From Thermoplasmata archaeon (lineage in GTDB: Archaea > Thermoplasmatota > Thermoplasmata > Sysuiplasmatales > Sysuiplasmataceae): DNA of 35,045 nt. The stretch's first letter is position 1, and each line of letters starts with the position of its first letter. The stretch spans positions 1-35,045 of the forward strand of contig JAJZXY010000018.1 of NCBI GenBank assembly GCA_021806165.1. Reading direction: 5' to 3'. This document shows positions 10,958 to 32,704 of the stretch, one piece after another. The notes under the pieces are model-generated. The model saw only the letters and a list, made by a program, of their open reading frames with translations, searched no databases and was not told the origin of the DNA. Made by a program: the position numbers and the translations under genes.

Positions 10958-11746
10958 TCAGTCCCTTATCTCCTTCTCCGCCATCACATAGGTAAGCGCA
11001 ACCATCCCCGCTGCCAAGAGAGCAAGAGCCCCGAGCCACTGGAAGATGCTGCCCCACTGGGACGCCGTAAGGGAGCCCTGAAGGACGACCAGCCTTATCG
11101 ACTCGGCAGACCATGAGACGGGGTTGTACTTGGCGACATCGCCTATCCAGGGAGCCATCAGGCCGACCGGAAACATTGCATAGCTCATGAAAAGCAGCGG
11201 AAGGTTCACGAGGTTGACTATCCCGAATATGGTGTTCATCTCCCTCATCCTGATAGCTATCACGCTGAACATGGATGAGAAGATGAGCGACGTGAGCACA
11301 ATTGCTGTTATGATTACAAGCACGTCCGCAAGTGAGAAATCGCCGGGGAACTTCAGCCCATTGGGAAGGACCAGTGCAGCTATGATGAGTATGACTGACT
11401 GCACCATAATCCTGATGATCGCTGAAAAGATCCTCGAAAATACGATTGAGCTCCTGGAGATGGGCGATGCCAGGAACCTGCCCATCGGACCCAGCCTTCT
11501 GTCGAATATTATATTGGTGCCCGTAAACATGCCGGTGAAGAGCGCTGTGATTGTTAACACCCCTCCCACAATGTAGGTGATGTAAGTGCTCCCCTGCGGT
11601 ATCGCACCCAGGTGGGACAGATTGGACAGGGCGCTGCCAAAGAGGGCTATCCAGAAGAAAGGCTGGATCAGGCCGGTGAAGAAGAATACTGGATTTCTGT
11701 ACCACTTCTTCAGGTCACGCATCAGCAGCGGGAAAACGCCGCTCAT
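10958..11746 (-). CDS. ABC-2 type transporter permease
   Basis: This 262-residue integral membrane protein has six hydrophobic segments: FFFTGLIQPFFWIALFG, YIVGGVLTITALFTGMF, a pair near 110-170 (VLVIITAIVLTSLIFSSMF), LVNLPLLFMSYAMFPVGL, and a final LGALALLAAGMVALTYV. The ABC-2 signature lies in the last third: NLPLLFMSYAMFPVGLMAPWIGDVAKYNPVS (family 'F-P-x-x-x-x-P-x-x-x-x-x-x-x-x-x-N-P'). The family exports drugs, polysaccharides or lipids. Its ATG overlaps the stop of the ATPase gene (ATGA), a sign of translational coupling; together they form a complete half-ABC exporter pair. Confidence 0.92.
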   Translation of the reverse strand: MSGVFPLLMRDLKKWYRNPVFFFTGLIQPFFWIALFGSALSNLSHLGAIPQGSTYITYIVGGVLTITALFTGMFTGTNIIFDRRLGPMGRFLASPISRSSIVFSRIFSAIIRIMVQSVILIIAALVLPNGLKFPGDFSLADVLVIITAIVLTSLIFSSMFSVIAIRMREMNTIFGIVNLVNLPLLFMSYAMFPVGLMAPWIGDVAKYNPVSWSAESIRLVVLQGSLTASQWGSIFQWLGALALLAAGMVALTYVMAEKEIRD

Positions 11747-12741
11747 GCCTGTCTCATCCTCCTCATGTTCATGGCGTTCTTGAACCTGTCAGCGGGCGCA
11801 TCCTCCCTCAGGCTCCTGCCCGTATACCTCAGGAACACCTCATCAAGGGACGGCTTCTGGACGCTCAGCGTGGTGATGCTTATTCCCTTCTTGAAAACAA
11901 AACCCATCAGGTCTGGCAGCTCGCTGTCAGCATCTGCAACCCTTATCTTCAGCGTCCCGGGCTTGGAATCGAGTATTTCAATTATGCCGCCGTACTCCTT
12001 GACCGGAGCGGTATCCTGGCCATCCCTGAATCCCATCGTGACTATGTCACCCTTGAGCGATGCCTTGAGCTCACCTGGCGTCCCTGTAACTATGATCTTG
12101 CCATGGTCAACTATCGAAACCCTGTCGGCCAGTGCATCGATTTCCTCAAGATAGTGGCTTGTGAGTATGATGGTCATGTTATAGTCGCGCTTGAGCGTCG
12201 TGATGTAATCCCACATGACAGACCTTGTCTGCACATCGAGACCGAGCGTGGGTTCGTCGAGGAAGAGCACGCGAGGCTCATTTATGAGACCGATTATCAG
12301 CTCAAGCCTCTTCCGCATCCCGCCGGAGTATTCCCTGACATGCTTGTCGGCGGCATCCGCCAGATCCACCATGTTAAGGAGCTTTGACGCGCGCTCCGCA
12401 GCTGTCTTCTTGGGAACGTCGTAGAAGCTAGCCACGAGGAGCAGATTCTCGCGGCCGCTAAGATCCTCGTCCGCTGTCAGGTCCTGCGGGACGACGCCTA
12501 TGATGCGCCTTATCGCCATTGATTCCCTGTTGATGTCATGCCCGCCAACAGATGCCTTCCCTCTGGTCGAGCTGAGCCTTGTGGTGAGCATGTTTATGGT
12601 GGTCGTCTTCCCGGCGCCGTTTGGGCCCAGGAGGCCGTAAACCTCACCCTCCAGTATTTCTAAACTGATAGCATCAACTGCCGGCTTTGTCTCTCCCTTG
12701 TAAACCTTGGTCAGGGACTCCACACGTATGATCGGAACCAA
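11743..12741 (-). CDS. ABC transporter ATP-binding protein (DrrA-like, ABC-2 exporter)
   Basis: This ATPase of about 332 residues has Walker A at GPNGAGKTT (39-47), the signature YSGGMRKRLEL, Walker B at VLFLDEPTLGLD, and the H-loop in ILTSHYLEEID. The C-terminal extension of about 80 residues (GTLKIRVADADSELPDLMGF) is typical of DrrA-type drug and lipid exporters. I place the start at TTG 12739-12741, which lies 6 nt after a GGAGGA ribosome site. ATG 12745-12747 is in frame but directly abuts that site. A frame extending upstream to 12927 is open, but its extra residues show no family similarity. The inverted repeat at 12880-12894 lies in its promoter region. Confidence 0.9.
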   Translation of the reverse strand: MVPIIRVESLTKVYKGETKPAVDAISLEILEGEVYGLLGPNGAGKTTTINMLTTRLSSTRGKASVGGHDINRESMAIRRIIGVVPQDLTADEDLSGRENLLLVASFYDVPKKTAAERASKLLNMVDLADAADKHVREYSGGMRKRLELIIGLINEPRVLFLDEPTLGLDVQTRSVMWDYITTLKRDYNMTIILTSHYLEEIDALADRVSIVDHGKIIVTGTPGELKASLKGDIVTMGFRDGQDTAPVKEYGGIIEILDSKPGTLKIRVADADSELPDLMGFVFKKGISITTLSVQKPSLDEVFLRYTGRSLREDAPADRFKNAMNMRRMRQA

Positions 12742-23829: not shown

Positions 23830-26601
23830 TCAGAACTTGCGCCTCATTCTCACGAATACGACAGCGACAGCGGCTATCACAACCACCACCCCTGCAAGTA
23901 TGACGATTGTAATCAGCGTTCCGCCGAAGATGCCGAAAGGACTGTTGCCGGGAGGCGGAGAGCTGCTGGCAGATGTGAATGAGATTGCCTTGCTCACGCT
24001 TGAGCCGTGTACTGTTACAGTGCCTGTGACCGTCTGTGTTGTGTAACCGCTTGGAGGCACAACTGTGAACTGGTATGTGCCGTTGGGCAGGCTGAATGTG
24101 ATATCCTGCCGGGCTAGTGTCACGTTCGCACCGTTCACAACAACAGACCATGCTGTTCCCGATGGAAGGCCGCTCTCTGTGAAAGTCAGGTTGTAGTCCA
24201 CGATGCTGAATGTCACTGAAAGGGACTCTGTGCTGCCTGCGACCGAGAAGGAGCCTCCCTTTGCCGAATACTCCCTGAAGCTGGTGCCGATAACATAGGA
24301 GTAGGAGCCGTTGGGTTCATTGAATGAGATTGATGTGGCAGTGCTGCTGAACGACTGACCGCCGGTAAGGTTGACGAACCAGGTTTCTCCAGAGGGCAGC
24401 CCTGACTCGGTGAATGTCACGGAATAGGTAACCTTGGTAAAGGTTACGGTGCGGTTCAGCTGTGCACCGTTCACTATGAATGTGCCACCGCCACTCTCAA
24501 ACAACTTGTCCGTCGTGCCAACCGAATATATGTAAGTGCCATTTGGAAGGGTGGCGGTTATTTCAGCAGAGGATGAGGAGAGGGAGGGCTCTCCTGATAA
24601 GTTGACATACCAGGTCGTTCCGGACGGGAGTCCTGTTTCAGTGAATGTCACAAGGAACATGGACTCATTGAATGCGATGGCCTGAGAAGCGGGTGCGCCG
24701 TTTACTGTGATGCTGCCTGAGGAGGGTGAGACGTAGTAGCCTGTGTAGGACCCTGCAGTGAACGAGTATGTGCCGTTGGTTTCATTGAAGGTGACTGTAC
24801 CCGTAGTTGAGGTGACGGTCACACCATTCAGCGTGACATACCAGGTTGTGCCAGATGTCAATCCTGATTCAGTGAATGTTACAGTGTAGACGACCGGATT
24901 GAAAGTCACAGATACTGCCGTTGCAGATCCGCTGACTGCGAATGAGCCCCCTGGAGCAGTGTAGCTCTTGTCTGATGTGGCTATCGAATAGGTGTATGTT
25001 CCATTGGGCTCGCCGAATGTGATTGTAGCCGTAGCACTGCTGAATGTCTGGCTGTTTGTGAGGTTGACATACCATGTTGTGCCGGAAGGCAGACCGCTCT
25101 CGGTCATGGTGACGTTGAACAGCAGTGGCGATTCTATCATGGAAACCGAGCCGGAGTATTGGTTGGTTACATAGAGAAGGAAGTTGGATGGGTCGTACAG
25201 AACAGCAAATGGGCCACTGCCAACTGCTATGGATCCCAGTAGCGACACAGATGAGGTGTTAATTACCTCCACTGTTCCGGTCAAGACAGTTATGTAAAGG
25301 TAGCCGTTCTGGGAGTCATATGAAAGCGCCTGTACAGATTGTGCTGAGAATGCGACAATCGTCGATACAACAATTTCGGTCGTTGCATTAATGACCGAGA
25401 CATTGCCAGAGCCTGAATTCACTACATACAGGCTGTCTGTTGCAGGTACATAGGCGAGGCCTTCTGCATTTGCACCAACGCCAACATTGATGGGAGATTC
25501 GAGTCTGTTAGTGGTGCCGTTGATTATGTAAACCAGCCCCGAACCGTATGTGACAAACAGATTGCCATTGGAGGAATCTACTGCGATCTGCCCTGAGCCC
25601 ATGAGGACAGGCATGGAAACGGATGCAACAATTTTGCCCGTTGCAGGATTGATGGCTGCGATAGCAAAGGCTAGGTACATACCTGGTATGGAAATAGATG
25701 ACACGTATACTGCACATATCAGTCCATTGACTGGGTCGTAAACGGGAGAGTACGGATCCATACCAATGGTGATGTTACCAGTTATGGTTTCTGTGGAAGG
25801 ATTGATGATATAGAGGTTGTCGCCTGCGGCGTTGGCGACGTAGACCATGCCGTTGACCGGGTCATATGCGGACCCCTGAGGTGATGAACCGGTGCTCACA
25901 GATGAAACAACCGGATTGATAGTGACATTCACCACGAAGAAAGCGCCTCCAGAGTCAACGAATACGAGCTCAGTGGAAGGTACGTATAGCAGGCTCTGAG
26001 CTAAATTCGTGGAAGAGTTGTGATATACCTGGGTGACAAGCGATGTTATGTTGGTGCTGACGTTCAGTGAAAAGAGTTCTGAGGACGCGTCAACGCCGTA
26101 GATGTTCCTGTTTGCTGAGTCGTATGCAAGTCCCTCTGCTTGGTTAGGTATGACAGTTACCTCATTGACGACTGTGTTGGTGGTTCCGTTGATTACAGTG
26201 ACATTTACTGAGTTGCCTGAAACTGAGACATAAAGAGCATTGTTAGAGGGGCCATAGGTTATGCCATAAACGTATGCCCCGACTGTAATATTGGTGACAA
26301 TTTTGTCGCTCGACGGGTTGAATACAGTCACATTCCCTAAATTCCCACTCCCTTGACCTGTAATGTAAAGATTACCATTTGAGCTGTCGAAAGCTATGCC
26401 GAAAGGATTGAACGGCCCGGGCAACGGGGTTGCACTCGTAATAGAGTTTGTGGCTCCATTGATTGCTATCAAGTCGGCAGAGTCTGGAGCTCCAACAATC
26501 ACACTTGTTGAATATAGAAGGCAAGAGCAAGGAAGGTGCTGAGGAAGAACAGGGTGCTCGTGGTAACAGGCGATCTCAGGTTCAGCGGAGTGGAACGGCA
26601 T
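23830..26601 (-). CDS. Giant surface protein: YncE-type beta-propeller repeats, five ESGLPSG-type repeats, C-terminal membrane anchor
   Basis: This open frame has 923 residues. Residues 40-490 are NHL/YncE-like beta-propeller blades with phrases such as YDSSNGNLYVT, VSVINATT and VINGTTN. Residues 495-880 are five repeats of about 75-80 residues that each start F-T-E-S-G-L-P-S-G-T-T-W-Y-V-N-L and contain PNGTYxYS, a beta-sandwich module common in Thermoplasmata surface proteins. A membrane helix (FGGTLITIVILAGVVVVIAA) and the basic end RMRRKF close it. Dozens of N-x-S/T sites suggest heavy glycosylation. No signal peptide is seen: the first 33 residues (to about 26501) are unlike an export signal and overlap a gene on the other strand, so the 5' end is probably lost or wrongly placed. 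Confidence 0.8.
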   Translation of the reverse strand: MPFHSAEPEIACYHEHPVLPQHLPCSCLLYSTSVIVGAPDSADLIAINGATNSITSATPLPGPFNPFGIAFDSSNGNLYITGQGSGNLGNVTVFNPSSDKIVTNITVGAYVYGITYGPSNNALYVSVSGNSVNVTVINGTTNTVVNEVTVIPNQAEGLAYDSANRNIYGVDASSELFSLNVSTNITSLVTQVYHNSSTNLAQSLLYVPSTELVFVDSGGAFFVVNVTINPVVSSVSTGSSPQGSAYDPVNGMVYVANAAGDNLYIINPSTETITGNITIGMDPYSPVYDPVNGLICAVYVSSISIPGMYLAFAIAAINPATGKIVASVSMPVLMGSGQIAVDSSNGNLFVTYGSGLVYIINGTTNRLESPINVGVGANAEGLAYVPATDSLYVVNSGSGNVSVINATTEIVVSTIVAFSAQSVQALSYDSQNGYLYITVLTGTVEVINTSSVSLLGSIAVGSGPFAVLYDPSNFLLYVTNQYSGSVSMIESPLLFNVTMTESGLPSGTTWYVNLTNSQTFSSATATITFGEPNGTYTYSIATSDKSYTAPGGSFAVSGSATAVSVTFNPVVYTVTFTESGLTSGTTWYVTLNGVTVTSTTGTVTFNETNGTYSFTAGSYTGYYVSPSSGSITVNGAPASQAIAFNESMFLVTFTETGLPSGTTWYVNLSGEPSLSSSSAEITATLPNGTYIYSVGTTDKLFESGGGTFIVNGAQLNRTVTFTKVTYSVTFTESGLPSGETWFVNLTGGQSFSSTATSISFNEPNGSYSYVIGTSFREYSAKGGSFSVAGSTESLSVTFSIVDYNLTFTESGLPSGTAWSVVVNGANVTLARQDITFSLPNGTYQFTVVPPSGYTTQTVTGTVTVHGSSVSKAISFTSASSSPPPGNSPFGIFGGTLITIVILAGVVVVIAAVAVVFVRMRRKF

Positions 26602-26883
26602 GGTTTGAGGAGAGAGATCAAGGGCGTCCTCGGACCATTGGGTTTTACAGTTAATCCAAGGTCAAGATCTGCACGCGCACCAGGCCTCCTGATAAAATAC
26701 CTGAACCGCGGGCTGAATGTGGTCTCCCTGGATTCGGTGAGGACCGTGGACCTGGCGGCAATGCCTGGAAAGGGCAGAAGTGCCCCGCCTGGGTACATGA
26801 TTCTTGCTGTTAACGGACGCGGTCTCAAGCACCCGCTGGAAATTCCAGGTATGCGCATTACATCTCCGGAGGGACTGTCTTGA
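26536..26883 (+). CDS. Hypothetical protein translationally coupled to the PKD gene
   Basis: This 115-residue frame starts at GTG 26536, right after an aaggaag ribosome site. It is basic and has no hydrophobic segment. Two patches, RVLVVTGDLRFSG and PPGYMILAVNGRGL, look like beta strands of a soluble domain. I do not recognise the family. Its TGA overlaps the TTG start of the next gene, giving the coupling sequence TTGA. The overlap of its first 66 nt with the start of the giant surface protein on the other strand means that one of the two starts is wrong or that a rearrangement joined them. Confidence 0.5.
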   Translation: MLRKNRVLVVTGDLRFSGVERHGLRREIKGVLGPLGFTVNPRSRSARAPGLLIKYLNRGLNVVSLDSVRTVDLAAMPGKGRSAPPGYMILAVNGRGLKHPLEIPGMRITSPEGLS

Positions 26884-27965
26884 AAAGGGGAGGAGTTCAT
26901 GCACTCCTTGCCCTACTGCTGTTGATCGCAGTTGTGGTCCTTTTCCTGTCAGCTTTCAGTAGCGGCATGCGTGGAGAGATTGCAAATGTGCTTGCTCCAG
27001 AGAGCACAGGCACCTACACATTGAGCCCAGATACGGGGGTTGGGTTCGAATGGATAGCACAATCTTCCGTCACGTATGACATAAGCTCCACATCCACCGC
27101 CTACCTCACAGTCTTCTGGAGCACCTCGACAGGCAATGCACAGGTGGCGAGGAACGGCACGTCCCTCACCGGGACTGCCTCGCCGCAGATTGATACCAGC
27201 CAGACACCTACGCCCGCAGACGCGACGATAGTTGCGGCTGCGGAGGATGTATGCGGGCATACGCAGATAACAGTCACATTTGGAATGCAGGGATCGGTTA
27301 CGCCTGACAACGGACCGACCTACATCACCGGACTGCAGACAGGCAATTGTTCGACTTCAGTTACCACCGCCCTACCCGGTCCCGGGATAGGTGTGATTGC
27401 CGGTGGCGCTTCCGCGGCCATTGGAGGGATTGCACTAGCAGGTCTTGCCGCTTCAGGAGGCGGAGGTGCCTATACCGTACCGTCCCTGCCTGAGCCAACA
27501 CCCGGGCAGCAGATGGATTTCGGTTCGTCGTTCTACGGACCTGACACCCTCATTACCATGAATCCATGGGAACCCACGCTGCCGCCTCTGCCTCCTCCAC
27601 CAGGAGGCTCTGGTGCTGCACCCGCGCAGATACCCGAGCTCCCCCCTCCGACAATGAAAATGACAGGTGAAATATGCGCGTTTCCCAATCCCGGCGGGAA
27701 AGGCGATCCATATGAGTCCTGGAGCAGGAATTCAGAGCACAGTGTTGCAGGTTTTGTCAACGTGAATGGAGGGTCAGGCCCTTACACAGTCGTGCTTCAT
27801 TTCGGCGACGGCACAACCGGTTTTGTAGAAGGGGGGAGCCCCGGTTCAGGCTTTGTGAGCTTCAACCACACCTTTCCCCACGCCGGCCTCTGGCAAATCA
27901 CAGCCCAGGTCCAGTCTCCAGGTTCCGGCCTGCAGACTTACACCTGCCTGGTCGTGGCGCAGTAA
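26880..27965 (+). CDS. Membrane-anchored protein with PKD domain
   Basis: This 361-residue protein begins with a signal or anchor helix (LLALLLLIAVVVLFLSAF). A Ser/Thr-rich extracellular domain (about 35-165) carries one Cys pair (C125 in EDVCGH and C155 in TGNCST). A second hydrophobic Gly/Ala-rich segment follows (GIGVIAGGASAAIGGIALAG), then a proline-rich linker (LPPLPPPP), and finally a PKD-type domain: GSGPYTVVLHFGDGTTG ... FNHTFPHAGLWQITAQV (family Y-x-W-x-F-G-D-G ... H-x-Y-x-x-x-G-x-Y-x-V). PKD domains mediate surface contacts. It starts at TTG 26880, overlapping the stop of the upstream gene. It may help anchor a surface complex together with its coupled partner (inference). Confidence 0.75.
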   Translation: MKRGGVHALLALLLLIAVVVLFLSAFSSGMRGEIANVLAPESTGTYTLSPDTGVGFEWIAQSSVTYDISSTSTAYLTVFWSTSTGNAQVARNGTSLTGTASPQIDTSQTPTPADATIVAAAEDVCGHTQITVTFGMQGSVTPDNGPTYITGLQTGNCSTSVTTALPGPGIGVIAGGASAAIGGIALAGLAASGGGGAYTVPSLPEPTPGQQMDFGSSFYGPDTLITMNPWEPTLPPLPPPPGGSGAAPAQIPELPPPTMKMTGEICAFPNPGGKGDPYESWSRNSEHSVAGFVNVNGGSGPYTVVLHFGDGTTGFVEGGSPGSGFVSFNHTFPHAGLWQITAQVQSPGSGLQTYTCLVVAQ

Positions 27966-28522: not shown

Positions 28523-31030
28523 TCATGCCGGTCCATTGCACCGCATGGCAAGTCTCCCCAGCTCTGAAGCGGAGCTCATCTCCGTCCATGAACCTGAGTT
28601 GTAGGACATGAGCGCCGACCCTTTGAGTGCCAAAAAGAGTGATTCCCGGAACTCCCCTCCCCTGAGTGCTGATATCACCGGACCCTCCTCGTTGAATACA
28701 AAGACAGGCACTGCATTGTTCCTCACGGCCCTCTCAATCTTCTTTCTGCGCTTATCAAGCTGGTATCTGGTTGCCACCTCAACCTCAACATAGAGCAAGG
28801 TGGACGAAATGCTGCCCGGCGTCTTGACTATCAGGTCAGGCTGCTCCCTCCCCAGTCGCTGCCTCGGAATGTATGTGAGCATGTGCATCGAGTCGAATAT
28901 GTCCTTGACAGCAAGAACCATGCTCCTGTGCTCCGAATTGCCCGCAAGCATGCCTCCCTGCAGCCTCAGCAGTTCGTTCCTGCCGGACTGTGACAGTTTC
29001 AGGTGTGCCTTCTGCACCAGGGACATGGATCTTGCCCTCTCGATTAGAGTGGACATTTCAGAGGCGCCATAGCCGAGGAGGGTCAGCGCACCGGTCTCCT
29101 CTATGCCGCTTATTGACTGCTTCCCCTGGTTTTCGGCCATCCTTGTTATCTGCAGCACGTCGAACAGCTGCCCTTCGAGCGATGAGAGAGGAGAGGGGAA
29201 TGCATCATCGGTCGTGCTGTAGCACTCCCCGACAGCGCCTGCATATGCGCCCAGGTCGAATGGGGAGGGGGCTGGCACATCAACAGACAGCAATCCTGTC
29301 GACCCCCTGCTCCTGATTATGGCCGAAAGAGGCTCGAGCCCCGTGATGTCCTCCGGGGAGATGTCGCCTGCGAACTCGCTTGCCATCCTGGCATCCATCT
29401 CATCCAGGTGCAGCAGAATCTTGTTTTCGAAGTTGGAGCCAAGAGAGGCAAGAGTGCTCCTGCCAAACACTGAAGGGCTCTGAGTGGCAAAAACAACATT
29501 GACTCCGAACTTCCTTCCCTGGGAGGCAATGCGCCCGATTATGTCCGCCGGATAGAGCTGTGCCTCATCTATGAGTATGGTTGCACCGCTGCGGGCGGAC
29601 GAGGCCAGTATCCAGTATGCGGAAATCAGCATTGCCCCCACGAGCGATGATACGCCCGCACCGATGCGGTTCATGTCCAGGTTGGCCACGATTGTAATCC
29701 CCTCCCTGATGCAGGCGCCAATATCGAGATTGCCCTTCCTCCTGCAGAGGAGGGAGCGGCAGTGCCTGTCATCTATGATCCGGCCGATCTTGTCGATGGT
29801 GGACATCCACCACTCGTCCTTCGCCTTCGGTACTATGGAGAGGAGGAAATTCCTGGTGTTGCCTTCGGGAGTGGTGTCCGCAAGCTCCTTTGACGCAAAC
29901 GGGTTGTTGATCAGCTCCATGACATCCACGAAATTGGACTCCGGCAGAGGCGCAACGGCTCCGATCATCCCCTTGAGCAGATACTCCAGCCTTGGCCCCC
30001 AGTACTCCTTACCGAATGCCTCCCTGACTGAGTGGCCGATGGATTCGACAAGCAGGGAGGAGACCTCCTGCGTCTCCCCGCAGCTCCTGAACACTTCGAA
30101 CGGGTTGATGCCCAGAGGGGTGAGGACAGGATCAATCATAAGCAGCCTCCCCTCGTCTATCCTGTTGCCCCGGGAACCCATGATGGAGATGGCAAGCGTT
30201 CCATGGGGGTCTATGACGCATACAGGCCTGCCCTGCCTGATCAGTGCAAGTGCGAGATGCTGCAGAACGGATGACTTTCCCGAACCGGTTCCACCGAAAA
30301 CCAGCGTATTGCCCCTGAGGAAATCTTCACCTACAAACAGCCGGTGCCTGCCGGAGGCAGTAACCACATTTATGCCCTCTAGCACAACGTCTCCATGTCC
30401 AGGTGGAAAGCCTCCCCTGATCATCCAGGTCTCATTCGGGGAGGGAAGTATTGCATCTATTGCAGACAGAGGCATGACGGAGGCCGGAGGCCGCGCCTTC
30501 CACGGTTTACTCCGCTTCCAGAGCTTCCTCTGCATGGCAGGGGGAAATATCTCCGCCAGCCTCCACTGCTCACCTGCAAACAGCAGGTGAAATGAAATCA
30601 GTGCCTTCCCGTACAGGCCGTGCCCCGGTCTTGAGTGCCACAGCCGCCTGATGCTGACCGCCGCCCTGAGCTTTTCGTCAGGGAGCAATGATCGCATCGC
30701 TGAGTGGACAGCCTGAGTGAGATGGAGGCTTGGGATGTCACCCGCGTGCCTCAGTGATAGTGCGACAGAATATCCTGCCGAACGCACAACGTCTAGCGTG
30801 TCAACCCGGCATCGCGGGTCTCTGCCTGCAATGGCAGTCCGGAGCATCCCAAGAATATTGTCGTGGCACGTCACTATGGTCTGCAGAGGGAAGAGACCCT
30901 CTTTTTGAAGTATCAGTGTGAAGGAGCGTATTCCCCCTGCCATGTCGCCCAGGAAACCTGAATGGTTGAAATCGATGCTCTGAGGGAAGTGCACGGCGTA
31001 GAAGTTCAGGCGCTTGCCCAAAGGCAACAC
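28523..31030 (-). CDS. HerA/VirB4/TraG-like P-loop ATPase with possible PD-(D/E)xK nuclease tail
   Basis: Residues 1-210 of this 835-residue soluble protein are an N-terminal domain of unknown type. The ATPase core has Walker A at FGGTGSGKSS (about 245-254), VCVIDPHGT (271-278, the FtsK/VirD4-like second strand), Walker B at TILIDEAQ (484-491), and a sensor strand NVVFATQSPS (511-520). It resembles archaeal 'type IV secretion/DUF87' ATPases that move DNA. After a helical part near 640-715, the last 110 residues contain PDLIV (D732) and YVEVEVATRYQ (E749, E751) followed by basic helices, which is the order of a PD-(D/E)xK nuclease. It starts with GTG 31030, with a TTG inside. A 16-bp palindrome lies upstream. 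It may come from a conjugative or integrated element, or act in defence. Confidence 0.8.
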   Translation of the reverse strand: MLPLGKRLNFYAVHFPQSIDFNHSGFLGDMAGGIRSFTLILQKEGLFPLQTIVTCHDNILGMLRTAIAGRDPRCRVDTLDVVRSAGYSVALSLRHAGDIPSLHLTQAVHSAMRSLLPDEKLRAAVSIRRLWHSRPGHGLYGKALISFHLLFAGEQWRLAEIFPPAMQRKLWKRSKPWKARPPASVMPLSAIDAILPSPNETWMIRGGFPPGHGDVVLEGINVVTASGRHRLFVGEDFLRGNTLVFGGTGSGKSSVLQHLALALIRQGRPVCVIDPHGTLAISIMGSRGNRIDEGRLLMIDPVLTPLGINPFEVFRSCGETQEVSSLLVESIGHSVREAFGKEYWGPRLEYLLKGMIGAVAPLPESNFVDVMELINNPFASKELADTTPEGNTRNFLLSIVPKAKDEWWMSTIDKIGRIIDDRHCRSLLCRRKGNLDIGACIREGITIVANLDMNRIGAGVSSLVGAMLISAYWILASSARSGATILIDEAQLYPADIIGRIASQGRKFGVNVVFATQSPSVFGRSTLASLGSNFENKILLHLDEMDARMASEFAGDISPEDITGLEPLSAIIRSRGSTGLLSVDVPAPSPFDLGAYAGAVGECYSTTDDAFPSPLSSLEGQLFDVLQITRMAENQGKQSISGIEETGALTLLGYGASEMSTLIERARSMSLVQKAHLKLSQSGRNELLRLQGGMLAGNSEHRSMVLAVKDIFDSMHMLTYIPRQRLGREQPDLIVKTPGSISSTLLYVEVEVATRYQLDKRRKKIERAVRNNAVPVFVFNEEGPVISALRGGEFRESLFLALKGSALMSYNSGSWTEMSSASELGRLAMRCNGPA

Positions 31031-31137: not shown

Positions 31138-31145
31138 CAATATAA
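31138..31145 (-). promoter_or_regulatory. TATA-like box of the HerA-like ATPase gene
   Basis: On the minus strand the sequence reads ttatattg. It sits immediately downstream of the 16-bp palindrome and about 110 nt before the GTG start. Confidence 0.45.
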
Positions 31146-31151
31146 GCCATA

Positions 31152-31167
31152 CTGTTACATGTAACAG
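31152..31167. promoter_or_regulatory. perfect 16-bp palindrome, probable operator
   Basis: CTGTTACATGTAACAG is its own reverse complement. It lies next to the TATA-like box of the HerA-like ATPase gene and is the only gene-control-sized perfect palindrome I noticed in this gap. A helix-turn-helix dimer probably binds it. Confidence 0.7.
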
Positions 31168-31827
31168 GTTAACAGCAAGAATCTGCCGGAATGTGCAGCT
31201 TCAGCCTTGTGAGAATCCTGCTTCTTCCGGTCGAATTCCTGCCCCGTAATCAGTGTGTATGGGAAATGAGGATATCAGCAGCGGCAGGGAATGTGTATCA
31301 GTTCTGCCGGCACAGAATATGAACATCGCCATCAAGACAACGGACATGAAGGAGCTGAATGTCGATGGGCAGTGCTCCGTCAGGCAGGCCGATCTCATTC
31401 GGATATGGGGTTCATTCAGCCTTCTTCGGACCTGCCAACAGCATTGATGGCACTTGCCGGGGGGATCATGCAGGGCAAGAGGCCCGGTATTATCTGCTGC
31501 CCGTTGTACATTCTCCCGACAGCGGGGCTCGGGGCTGGCTGACCTGCCAATCGCCGAGGGTGCGGCGGGGCGCACTGCAGGATTGATGTTATAGCCAAAC
31601 CTTTTCCGGCAGCAAATGGATCGCTGATTTTGCTTAGACTGCCCCCGCCCGACCGGGCGGACTATCCGGGGGCATCCGTGACAATAGTCATTGTTGGCTT
31701 CATTCCTGAATGCTAGGGGGCCATATACGCAGGAAAGAGCCGTGCCTGAGACATGCCTGCCTTCGCTGGAGGCGACTTGCTGGAGCATTGTGATATGCGG
31801 TTGCCGGCTGCACGAGCATATGGCAGT
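31168..31827. other. gene-poor stretch with decayed reading frames
   Basis: A plus-strand reading from about 31259 gives MGNEDISSGRECVSVLPAQN, then MNIAIKTTDMKELNVDGQCS, and ends at about 31446. Other frames continue as FGYGVHSAFFGPANSIDGTC. The broken readings could be the remains of one gene, but I do not recognise it and no family motif is visible. I see no transposase or RNA gene. Confidence 0.3.
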
Positions 31828-31858: not shown

Positions 31859-32704
31859 ATGCCCCGCGACAGCAGACAGGTGAGCAAGAGCGGCGATGAT
31901 GCCGATACCCAGGACAGGGCGAGGCTCCTGGCATTCCTTGTTGACGGGGATAATGCCATGGCCTCCCTCATCGAACCCATGCTTGAGGAAGTAAGCAAGT
32001 ACGGCACCTCCATCATAAGGAGGGTTTACGGCGACTGGACGAAGTCGACCATGCAGGCCTGGCGCTCGGTTCTGCAGGAACATGCGCTCAGCCCAGCGCA
32101 GCAGTTTGCCAACGTCTCGGGGAAGAACGCAACAGACAGCGCGCTGATAATCGAGGCAATGGACATGCTGCACAATGGTGTTGTTGACGGTTTCTGCATC
32201 GTGTCCAGCGACAGTGACTATACGAGCCTTGCAAAGCGCATTCGCGAGGAGGGGCTGTTTGTCATGGGCATTGGCAGGGCTGCGACCCCCGCTGCATTCA
32301 GGAACGCATGCAGGGTATTTGTTGCCACGGAAAACCTGGCTCCTGCTGAGAGCACGAGGAAAGAGAGCAGAAGGCGATCAGGCAGGAGGTCCAGGGGAAG
32401 GGAGCCCCGTCAGCCGGAGGAGATGGTTGCAGAGGAGGTACCACCCGCAGACGGCAACAAACTGCCTCCTGCTCATGCACTTCGCCTCCTCAGAAAGGCA
32501 TTTGACGCGACTGTGAACGAGGACGGGCGTGCGACACTTGCATCAATGGGGCTGACGCTTAGAAGACTCGACCCCGCGTTCGATACGCGAACCTATGGAA
32601 AGAGCAAGCTGATGTCCCTTCTCGAAGCACTTAAGGACGATTTCACGATAGAAAAACCAAGGGATTCTTCAGATACCACCGTCTTTGTGAAATTGAAGCA
32701 GTAG
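31859..32704 (+). CDS. NYN-domain RNase-like protein with C-terminal LOTUS/OST-HTH domain
   Basis: This 281-residue protein contains two domains. The NYN (PIN-like, DUF88/LabA) domain spans residues 20-160: FLVDGDN (D29, D31), KNATDSALIIEAMD (D93), and VSSDSDY (D118, D120) form the acidic metal-binding site. A highly basic linker (about 165-185) follows, and then a LOTUS/OST-HTH domain (205-275) with DPAFDTRTYGKSKLMSLLEA, the family signature. The pair is found in proteins that cut or hold RNA. A TATA-like cattatatcc at 31828-31837 and an aaggag site (31842-31847) precede ATG 31859. It diverges from the HerA-like gene, 830 nt away. The RNA target is unknown. Confidence 0.88.
   Translation: MPRDSRQVSKSGDDADTQDRARLLAFLVDGDNAMASLIEPMLEEVSKYGTSIIRRVYGDWTKSTMQAWRSVLQEHALSPAQQFANVSGKNATDSALIIEAMDMLHNGVVDGFCIVSSDSDYTSLAKRIREEGLFVMGIGRAATPAAFRNACRVFVATENLAPAESTRKESRRRSGRRSRGREPRQPEEMVAEEVPPADGNKLPPAHALRLLRKAFDATVNEDGRATLASMGLTLRRLDPAFDTRTYGKSKLMSLLEALKDDFTIEKPRDSSDTTVFVKLKQ

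Follow-up and report, generated by a model that had tools for sequence, protein, structure and literature searches.

A VirD4/TrwB-like ATPase of a Thermoplasmata archaeon with a putative nuclease-like tail probably shared by archaeal coupling ATPases

The Ced DNA-import system of Sulfolobales consists of chromosomal VirB4/VirD4-like ATPases together with a pilin and a VirB6-like channel (PMC11868833, PMC9905601), and among the archaeal conjugative plasmids the VirB4 and VirD4 genes of pT33-3 (Thermococcus nautili 33-3) are essential for transfer (PMC12857230). Reviews up to 2025 state that a relaxase is not known from any of the archaeal conjugative plasmids (PMC9905601, PMC12857230, PMC6563490), and for pTC likewise none has been reported (PMC4390865). 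Among the bacterial relaxases the MOBC group are PD-(D/E)xK enzymes (PMC12857230), which correspond to the Pfam family PF13814, Replic_Relax (PMC5357655).

The window analysed here is the entire 35,045-bp contig of a Thermoplasmata MAG (1.88 Mb, 96% complete) and contains at 28523..31030 of the minus strand a frame with the start codon GTG, which encodes a predicted VirD4/TrwB-like coupling ATPase of 835 amino acids with a winged-helix and PD-ExE tail. The frame is a real gene: intact homologues with 43–78% identity are present in six of the eight genomes of the GTDB family, while a search of 400 genomes in total with the tail profile gave no homologue among the sampled genomes of the class outside this family. 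In comparison with the orthologue of the nearest relative, G001, dN is far below dS in the motor (0.151/1.8), the winged helix (0.067/2.0), and the nuclease-like part (0.106/1.27), and the gene is under strong purifying selection. In the family genomes G003 (85% complete) and G006 the gene was not detected and the type IV secretion system (T4SS) operon described below is present. The N-terminal domain (residues 1–230; 30341..31030, minus strand) is family-specific and without a Pfam match; inspection of the protein by eye revealed no obvious hydrophobic N-terminal helix, and an N-terminal transmembrane anchor is absent from many T4CPs.

Residues 231–600 (29231..30340, minus strand) form, according to Pfam and NCBIfam matches, an FtsK/HerA-superfamily motor of the VirD4/TrwB type with the Walker A motif GGTGSGKS (residues 246–253; 30272..30295, minus strand), the DEAQ-type Walker B motif ATILIDEAQ (residues 483–491; 29558..29584, minus strand), and an ATQSP motif, which upholds the DNA-pumping ATPase core proposed earlier. 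In Pfam TrwB_AAD_bind (7.9e-6) and FtsK_SpoIIIE (2.9e-6) score above cut-off and DUF87 slightly under it. The best NCBIfam matches, CedD (2.5e-9) and VirB4_CagE (3e-9), lie far under the curated cut-offs: the CedD equivalog NF053655 is not reached (36 bits against 600), nor is the HerA equivalog (17–19 bits against 800–970), and the HerA N-terminal barrel has no match in the protein. Relatives of the ATPase also give TrwB_AAD_bind, several of them with TraG-D_C, and the nearest plasmid relatives in tblastn are the transfer ATPases of Sulfolobus, Thermococcus, and haloarchaeal plasmids. Together, these profile scores and plasmid relatives identify the protein as a coupling ATPase of the VirD4/TrwB type and not HerA, and the label "HerA/VirB4-like" is corrected to that extent. 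CedD is the best NCBIfam relative and Ced is likewise chromosomal; however, the CedD model (527 aa) matches the motor only, and the partner operon contains VirB4 rather than CedB.

The motor is followed by a winged-helix-like segment (residues 608–690; 28961..29209, minus strand; weak Pfam wHTH match, E 0.0097), which can be aligned to the corresponding segment in the ATPases of Sulfolobus plasmids, and by a PD-(D/E)xK-like domain (residues 695–785; 28676..28948, minus strand) with the motif PD-x16-ExEV-[AST]T-x(8)-KK. In the alignment of seven family members conservation is highest in residues 608–785, and D732 (28835..28837), E749 and E751 of the ExE (28778..28786), T754, and, in the following helix, the candidate catalytic lysine K763 (28742..28744; all minus strand) with K764 are invariant in all seven, the three acidic residues exactly where the first-pass annotation had placed them. 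Among 22 diverse archaeal homologues, with identities down to 10%, only P731, D732, E749, and E751 are invariant. The K763 position, invariant in the close family, is elsewhere rich in K, N, and R. The order of elements in the distant tails is winged-helix segment, helix, strand, PD, ExE strand, and K-bearing helix. No Pfam family covers the tail domain, searches of PDB sequences, Pfam, and viral contigs with it returned nothing convincing, and in the full texts searched, which largely exclude subscription papers, no paper describing it was found. Thus, the PD-(D/E)xK tail suspected earlier is supported at the level of its motif, while AlphaFold models of 225 and 131 residues, computed from a two-sequence input (the window protein and L030), reached mean pLDDT of only 48 and 42 and left the fold unconfirmed; judged by the conserved residues, a PD-(D/E)xK fold is likely.

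Since the third catalytic position is occupied by E instead of K, nuclease activity is not guaranteed, and the same ExE in place of ExK would suit an alternative in which the coupling ATPase is the same, with a tail that is a non-catalytic module for DNA or substrate recognition, its PD-(D/E)xK fold binding DNA or docking the relaxosome. Coupling proteins frequently use their C-terminal extensions to choose the substrate, which counts for such a module. The cutting would then be done by another nuclease, for example, HerA-NurA or a ParB-type enzyme, to which the production of ssDNA has been attributed in earlier proposals (PMC9905601; PMC11868833). Against this alternative, the residues that remain invariant in the 22 diverse sequences are the metal-binding set P, D, E, E, whereas the DNA-contact positions vary. 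Moreover, the active site of BamHI is composed of D94, E111, and E113, that is, D-x16-ExE with the identical 17+2 spacing, so the missing ExK does not exclude catalysis. According to these data a non-catalytic tail is considered unlikely, though not negligibly so, and the tail is probably a nuclease.

The first-pass annotation regarded the protein as a special fusion and named a conjugative origin as the main alternative. The fusion is not peculiar to this protein and the conjugative origin turned out to be right, as the same tail ends the coupling ATPases of archaeal conjugative plasmids. Of the VirD4-like ATPases encoded on Sulfolobus and Thermococcus conjugative plasmids in PLSDB, 17 match the pMGB1 query over 80% or more of its length; all 17, including those of pNOB8, pING1, pKEF9, pARN3/4, pHVE14, pSOG1/2, and pT33-3, have this tail, and each of them terminates in a winged helix and RPD-x(~20)-ExES-xNE-x(3)-H-xEQ-x(3)-N-x(2)-K. 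The tail core is also present in two haloarchaeal plasmid ATPases and in 23 of the 24 examined coupling-type ATPases of Thermoplasmata, some of which adjoin VirB4; the latter proportion is biased upwards by ranking with a tail-including model, and many shorter relatives lie outside this set. In hhalign comparisons of the tail the own family matched Thermoplasmata with 94.4% probability (E 8e-8; reversed control 0.6%), a Thermoplasmata subset matched Sulfolobus with 89.6% (E 2e-6; reversed control 0.1%), the own family combined with Thermoplasmata matched Sulfolobus with 83% (E 8e-6; reversed controls at most 1%), and all archaeal sequences matched Halorussus with 97.8% (E 1e-12). Compared directly, the own family gave no match with the Sulfolobus set (0.4–1%), and the link between them passes through Thermoplasmata sequences of the L091/L095/L100/L101/L104 type and combined profiles. 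Taken together, the tail is very probably common to archaeal coupling ATPases by homology.

The ATPases of the Sulfolobus plasmids and pT33-3 (VirD4/TraG-like) display the same succession of VirD4/TrwB motor, winged helix, and PD-x(n)-ExE; however, they are longer (about 1000–1370 aa), extend further at the C-terminus, and differ at the N-terminus, and they are plasmid-borne beside transfer genes, whereas the window ATPase is chromosomal and solitary. A conserved nuclease-like domain is thus placed on a motor that all these archaeal conjugative plasmids already carry, which bears on how DNA is prepared for transfer in archaea and on whether it is moved in the ssDNA or dsDNA form.

The closest bacterial counterpart appears to be MOBC. 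Bacterial Replic_Relax proteins, like the archaeal tail, contain a winged helix followed by PD-x(~20)-Ex[DE]..K and partner a coupling ATPase; however, in bacteria this is a separate protein, while in archaea it is fused to the ATPase. On plasmids of Embleya, Desulfosporosinus, and Streptomyces the Replic_Relax gene directly follows a coupling or ATP-binding gene. This arrangement, recorded on the bacterial plasmids L120, L122, L124, L126, and L128 with ATP-binding or T4CP genes immediately before the MOBC-type gene, amounts to the archaeal fusion divided between two genes. The archaeal tails do not reach the PF13814 threshold (one of 22 cores at E 0.02), and hhalign of 47 archaeal against seven bacterial sequences gave E 0.0014 and 18% probability with PD and ExE in register (reversed E 0.8), so the similarity is only suggestive and is treated as a lead rather than as membership of MOBC/Replic_Relax. 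Weak PF13814 matches in other Thermoplasmatota (L075, L076) were rejected as unrelated proteins.

The upstream region of the window gene contains, 122 bp before the start codon, the 22-bp element TGTTAACCTGTTACATGTAACA (31153..31174, minus strand) with the perfect palindrome TGTTACATGTAACA inside it, and just downstream the putative TATA-like box CTTATATTG (31138..31146, minus strand). A search for TGTTAACNTGTTACATGTAWCA in 61 genomes of the class gave eight matches, all within the own GTDB family, against a chance expectation of about 5e-6. Three of them lie upstream of the ATPase gene (own genome, G005, and G007) and five upstream of a T4SS operon (own genome, C8:36097-36118, G001, G002, G005, and G006), in all eight on the same strand as the downstream gene and at most sites with a TATA-like box directly after the element. 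The element is absent at the divergent G002 copy of the ATPase gene and at the extra decayed copies in G005 and G007. The G002 case, like the operons of G003 and G006 in which the ATPase gene has no detected counterpart, counts against a strict pairing of gene and operon. We infer that the element and the adjoining TATA-like box resemble an archaeal activator site. The palindrome was also considered as an oriT, which was rejected because it immediately precedes a TATA-like box in two types of transcription units, one of them the T4SS operon; an operator is the simpler reading.

In the own genome this operon encodes a T4SS_pilin (9e-9), TrbL/VirB6 (7e-4), VirB4 (NF045975, 8.5e-28), and a VirB3-like protein, the coupling gene being missing from it, and a DUF87 search of this genome revealed no further coupling-type ATPase. 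Thus, the earlier observation that conjugation genes are not seen nearby holds within the window and fails at the level of the genome, where the T4SS operon on another contig has the same upstream element, by which the ATPase gene is linked to the operon though not adjacent to it. The operon locus (L139, G000:C8:28000-40000), present in every family genome inspected, comprises genes for the pilin (PF18895/PF04956), VirB6-like, VirB3-like, and VirB4 proteins and a PH-domain protein and adjoins genes for a cysteinyl-tRNA-synthetase-like and a DUF835 protein. Small winged-helix-like proteins (86–103 aa; L035:8671-8931 and 11505-11816) are encoded near both G005 copies of the ATPase gene and are possible regulators acting at the palindrome; a ribbon-helix-helix-like protein (about 120–150 aa), the product of the first T4SS-operon gene in G004 and G005 (L136:3133-3576, L137:7201-7662), is another candidate for binding it.

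The preferred reading, to which we assign a probability of roughly 0.6, is that the window gene encodes the coupling ATPase for a DNA-transfer system of the Ced/Ted-like kind located on the chromosome, and that a MOBC-relaxase-like nuclease fused to this ATPase processes the exported DNA. The ATPase would serve a compact chromosomal archaeal T4SS for DNA exchange, and, since the same promoter element stands at both loci, one regulator probably switches on both the ATPase gene and the remote pilin-VirB6-VirB4 operon. A hexameric motor would drive DNA towards the VirB4/VirB6/pilin channel, while the winged helix and the PD-(D/E)xK-like tail may bind the DNA and nick or cleave it ahead of transfer or in its course, thus doing the job of a relaxase, most similar to MOBC, but in cis on the motor. 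Both the direction of transfer and the relaxase-like role are what we infer from these comparisons, and the odds of relaxase-like processing by the tail are put at about even. The wider proposal, that the archaeal relaxase is a MOBC-like PD-(D/E)xK domain fused to the C-terminus of VirD4-type ATPases from the Sulfolobus and Thermococcus plasmids to haloarchaea and Thermoplasmata, with the window gene as its chromosomal T4SS-coregulated version, is tentative and held with slightly less than even confidence. The tail is nevertheless a testable candidate for the relaxase so far missing from archaeal conjugation, as its motif allows a test of the size of a point mutation where transfer assays work (pT33-3 and the Sulfolobus plasmids), and a chromosomal T4SS with a putatively co-regulated coupling ATPase is identified in uncultured Thermoplasmata.

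The window neighbours of the ATPase gene encode MFS, NYN-LOTUS, and surface proteins: a large YncE-type beta-propeller surface protein (23830-26601, minus strand), a PKD-domain membrane protein (26880-27965, plus strand), and, beyond the element and divergent from the ATPase gene, an NYN-domain RNase with LOTUS (OST-HTH) (31859-32704, plus strand). The solitary position among unrelated genes and the best PADLOC match, mad8 (3.9e-22), would fit the stand-alone defence gene envisaged in the first-pass annotation, in which a nuclease joined to a HerA-type motor degrades invading DNA. The mad8 match, however, is limited to residues 239–578 of the ATPase, none of the four scanned neighbour proteins matches PADLOC models, so that a locus of mad8 plus MADS genes is not seen, and the relatives with the same tail are located on conjugative plasmids or adjoin VirB4, while the operator-like element is common to the T4SS operon. 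HerA and HerA-nuclease defence systems and mad8 of MADS have the FtsK-HerA superfamily motor in common with the window protein but differ from it by its weak HerA scores, a tail outside the defence nuclease families, and its relatives in conjugation. The defence reading is thus not supported and highly improbable.

In the close family the copies of the ATPase gene occupy ordinary, non-conserved chromosomal neighbourhoods, so the proviso that homologues might always be embedded in conjugative elements describes the distant family and not the close one. That the neighbourhood is never conserved, that G005 and G007 contain several copies, some of them broken, and that a transposase lies close to a G005 copy would be expected if an integrative or mobilisable element had left the ATPase gene behind as a decaying remnant or a solitary gene, the ATPase then being a selfish one that moves its own DNA by pirating the host T4SS. 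This is doubtful, and more so than a non-catalytic tail, since the window copy has neither an integrase (by eye) nor flanking repeats, the gene is under strong purifying selection, and in three genomes its operator is identical to that of the chromosomal operon; a dedicated coupling ATPase of the chromosomal system remains the preferred reading. The extra copies in G005 and G007 (L035:9401-11391, L036, L041, L042, and L043), several of which are disrupted by stop codons or frameshifts or cut off where a contig ends, represent amplification and decay in one genus. Antisense to the window gene a 339-aa open frame (29571-30590, plus strand) is a shadow ORF and no gene.
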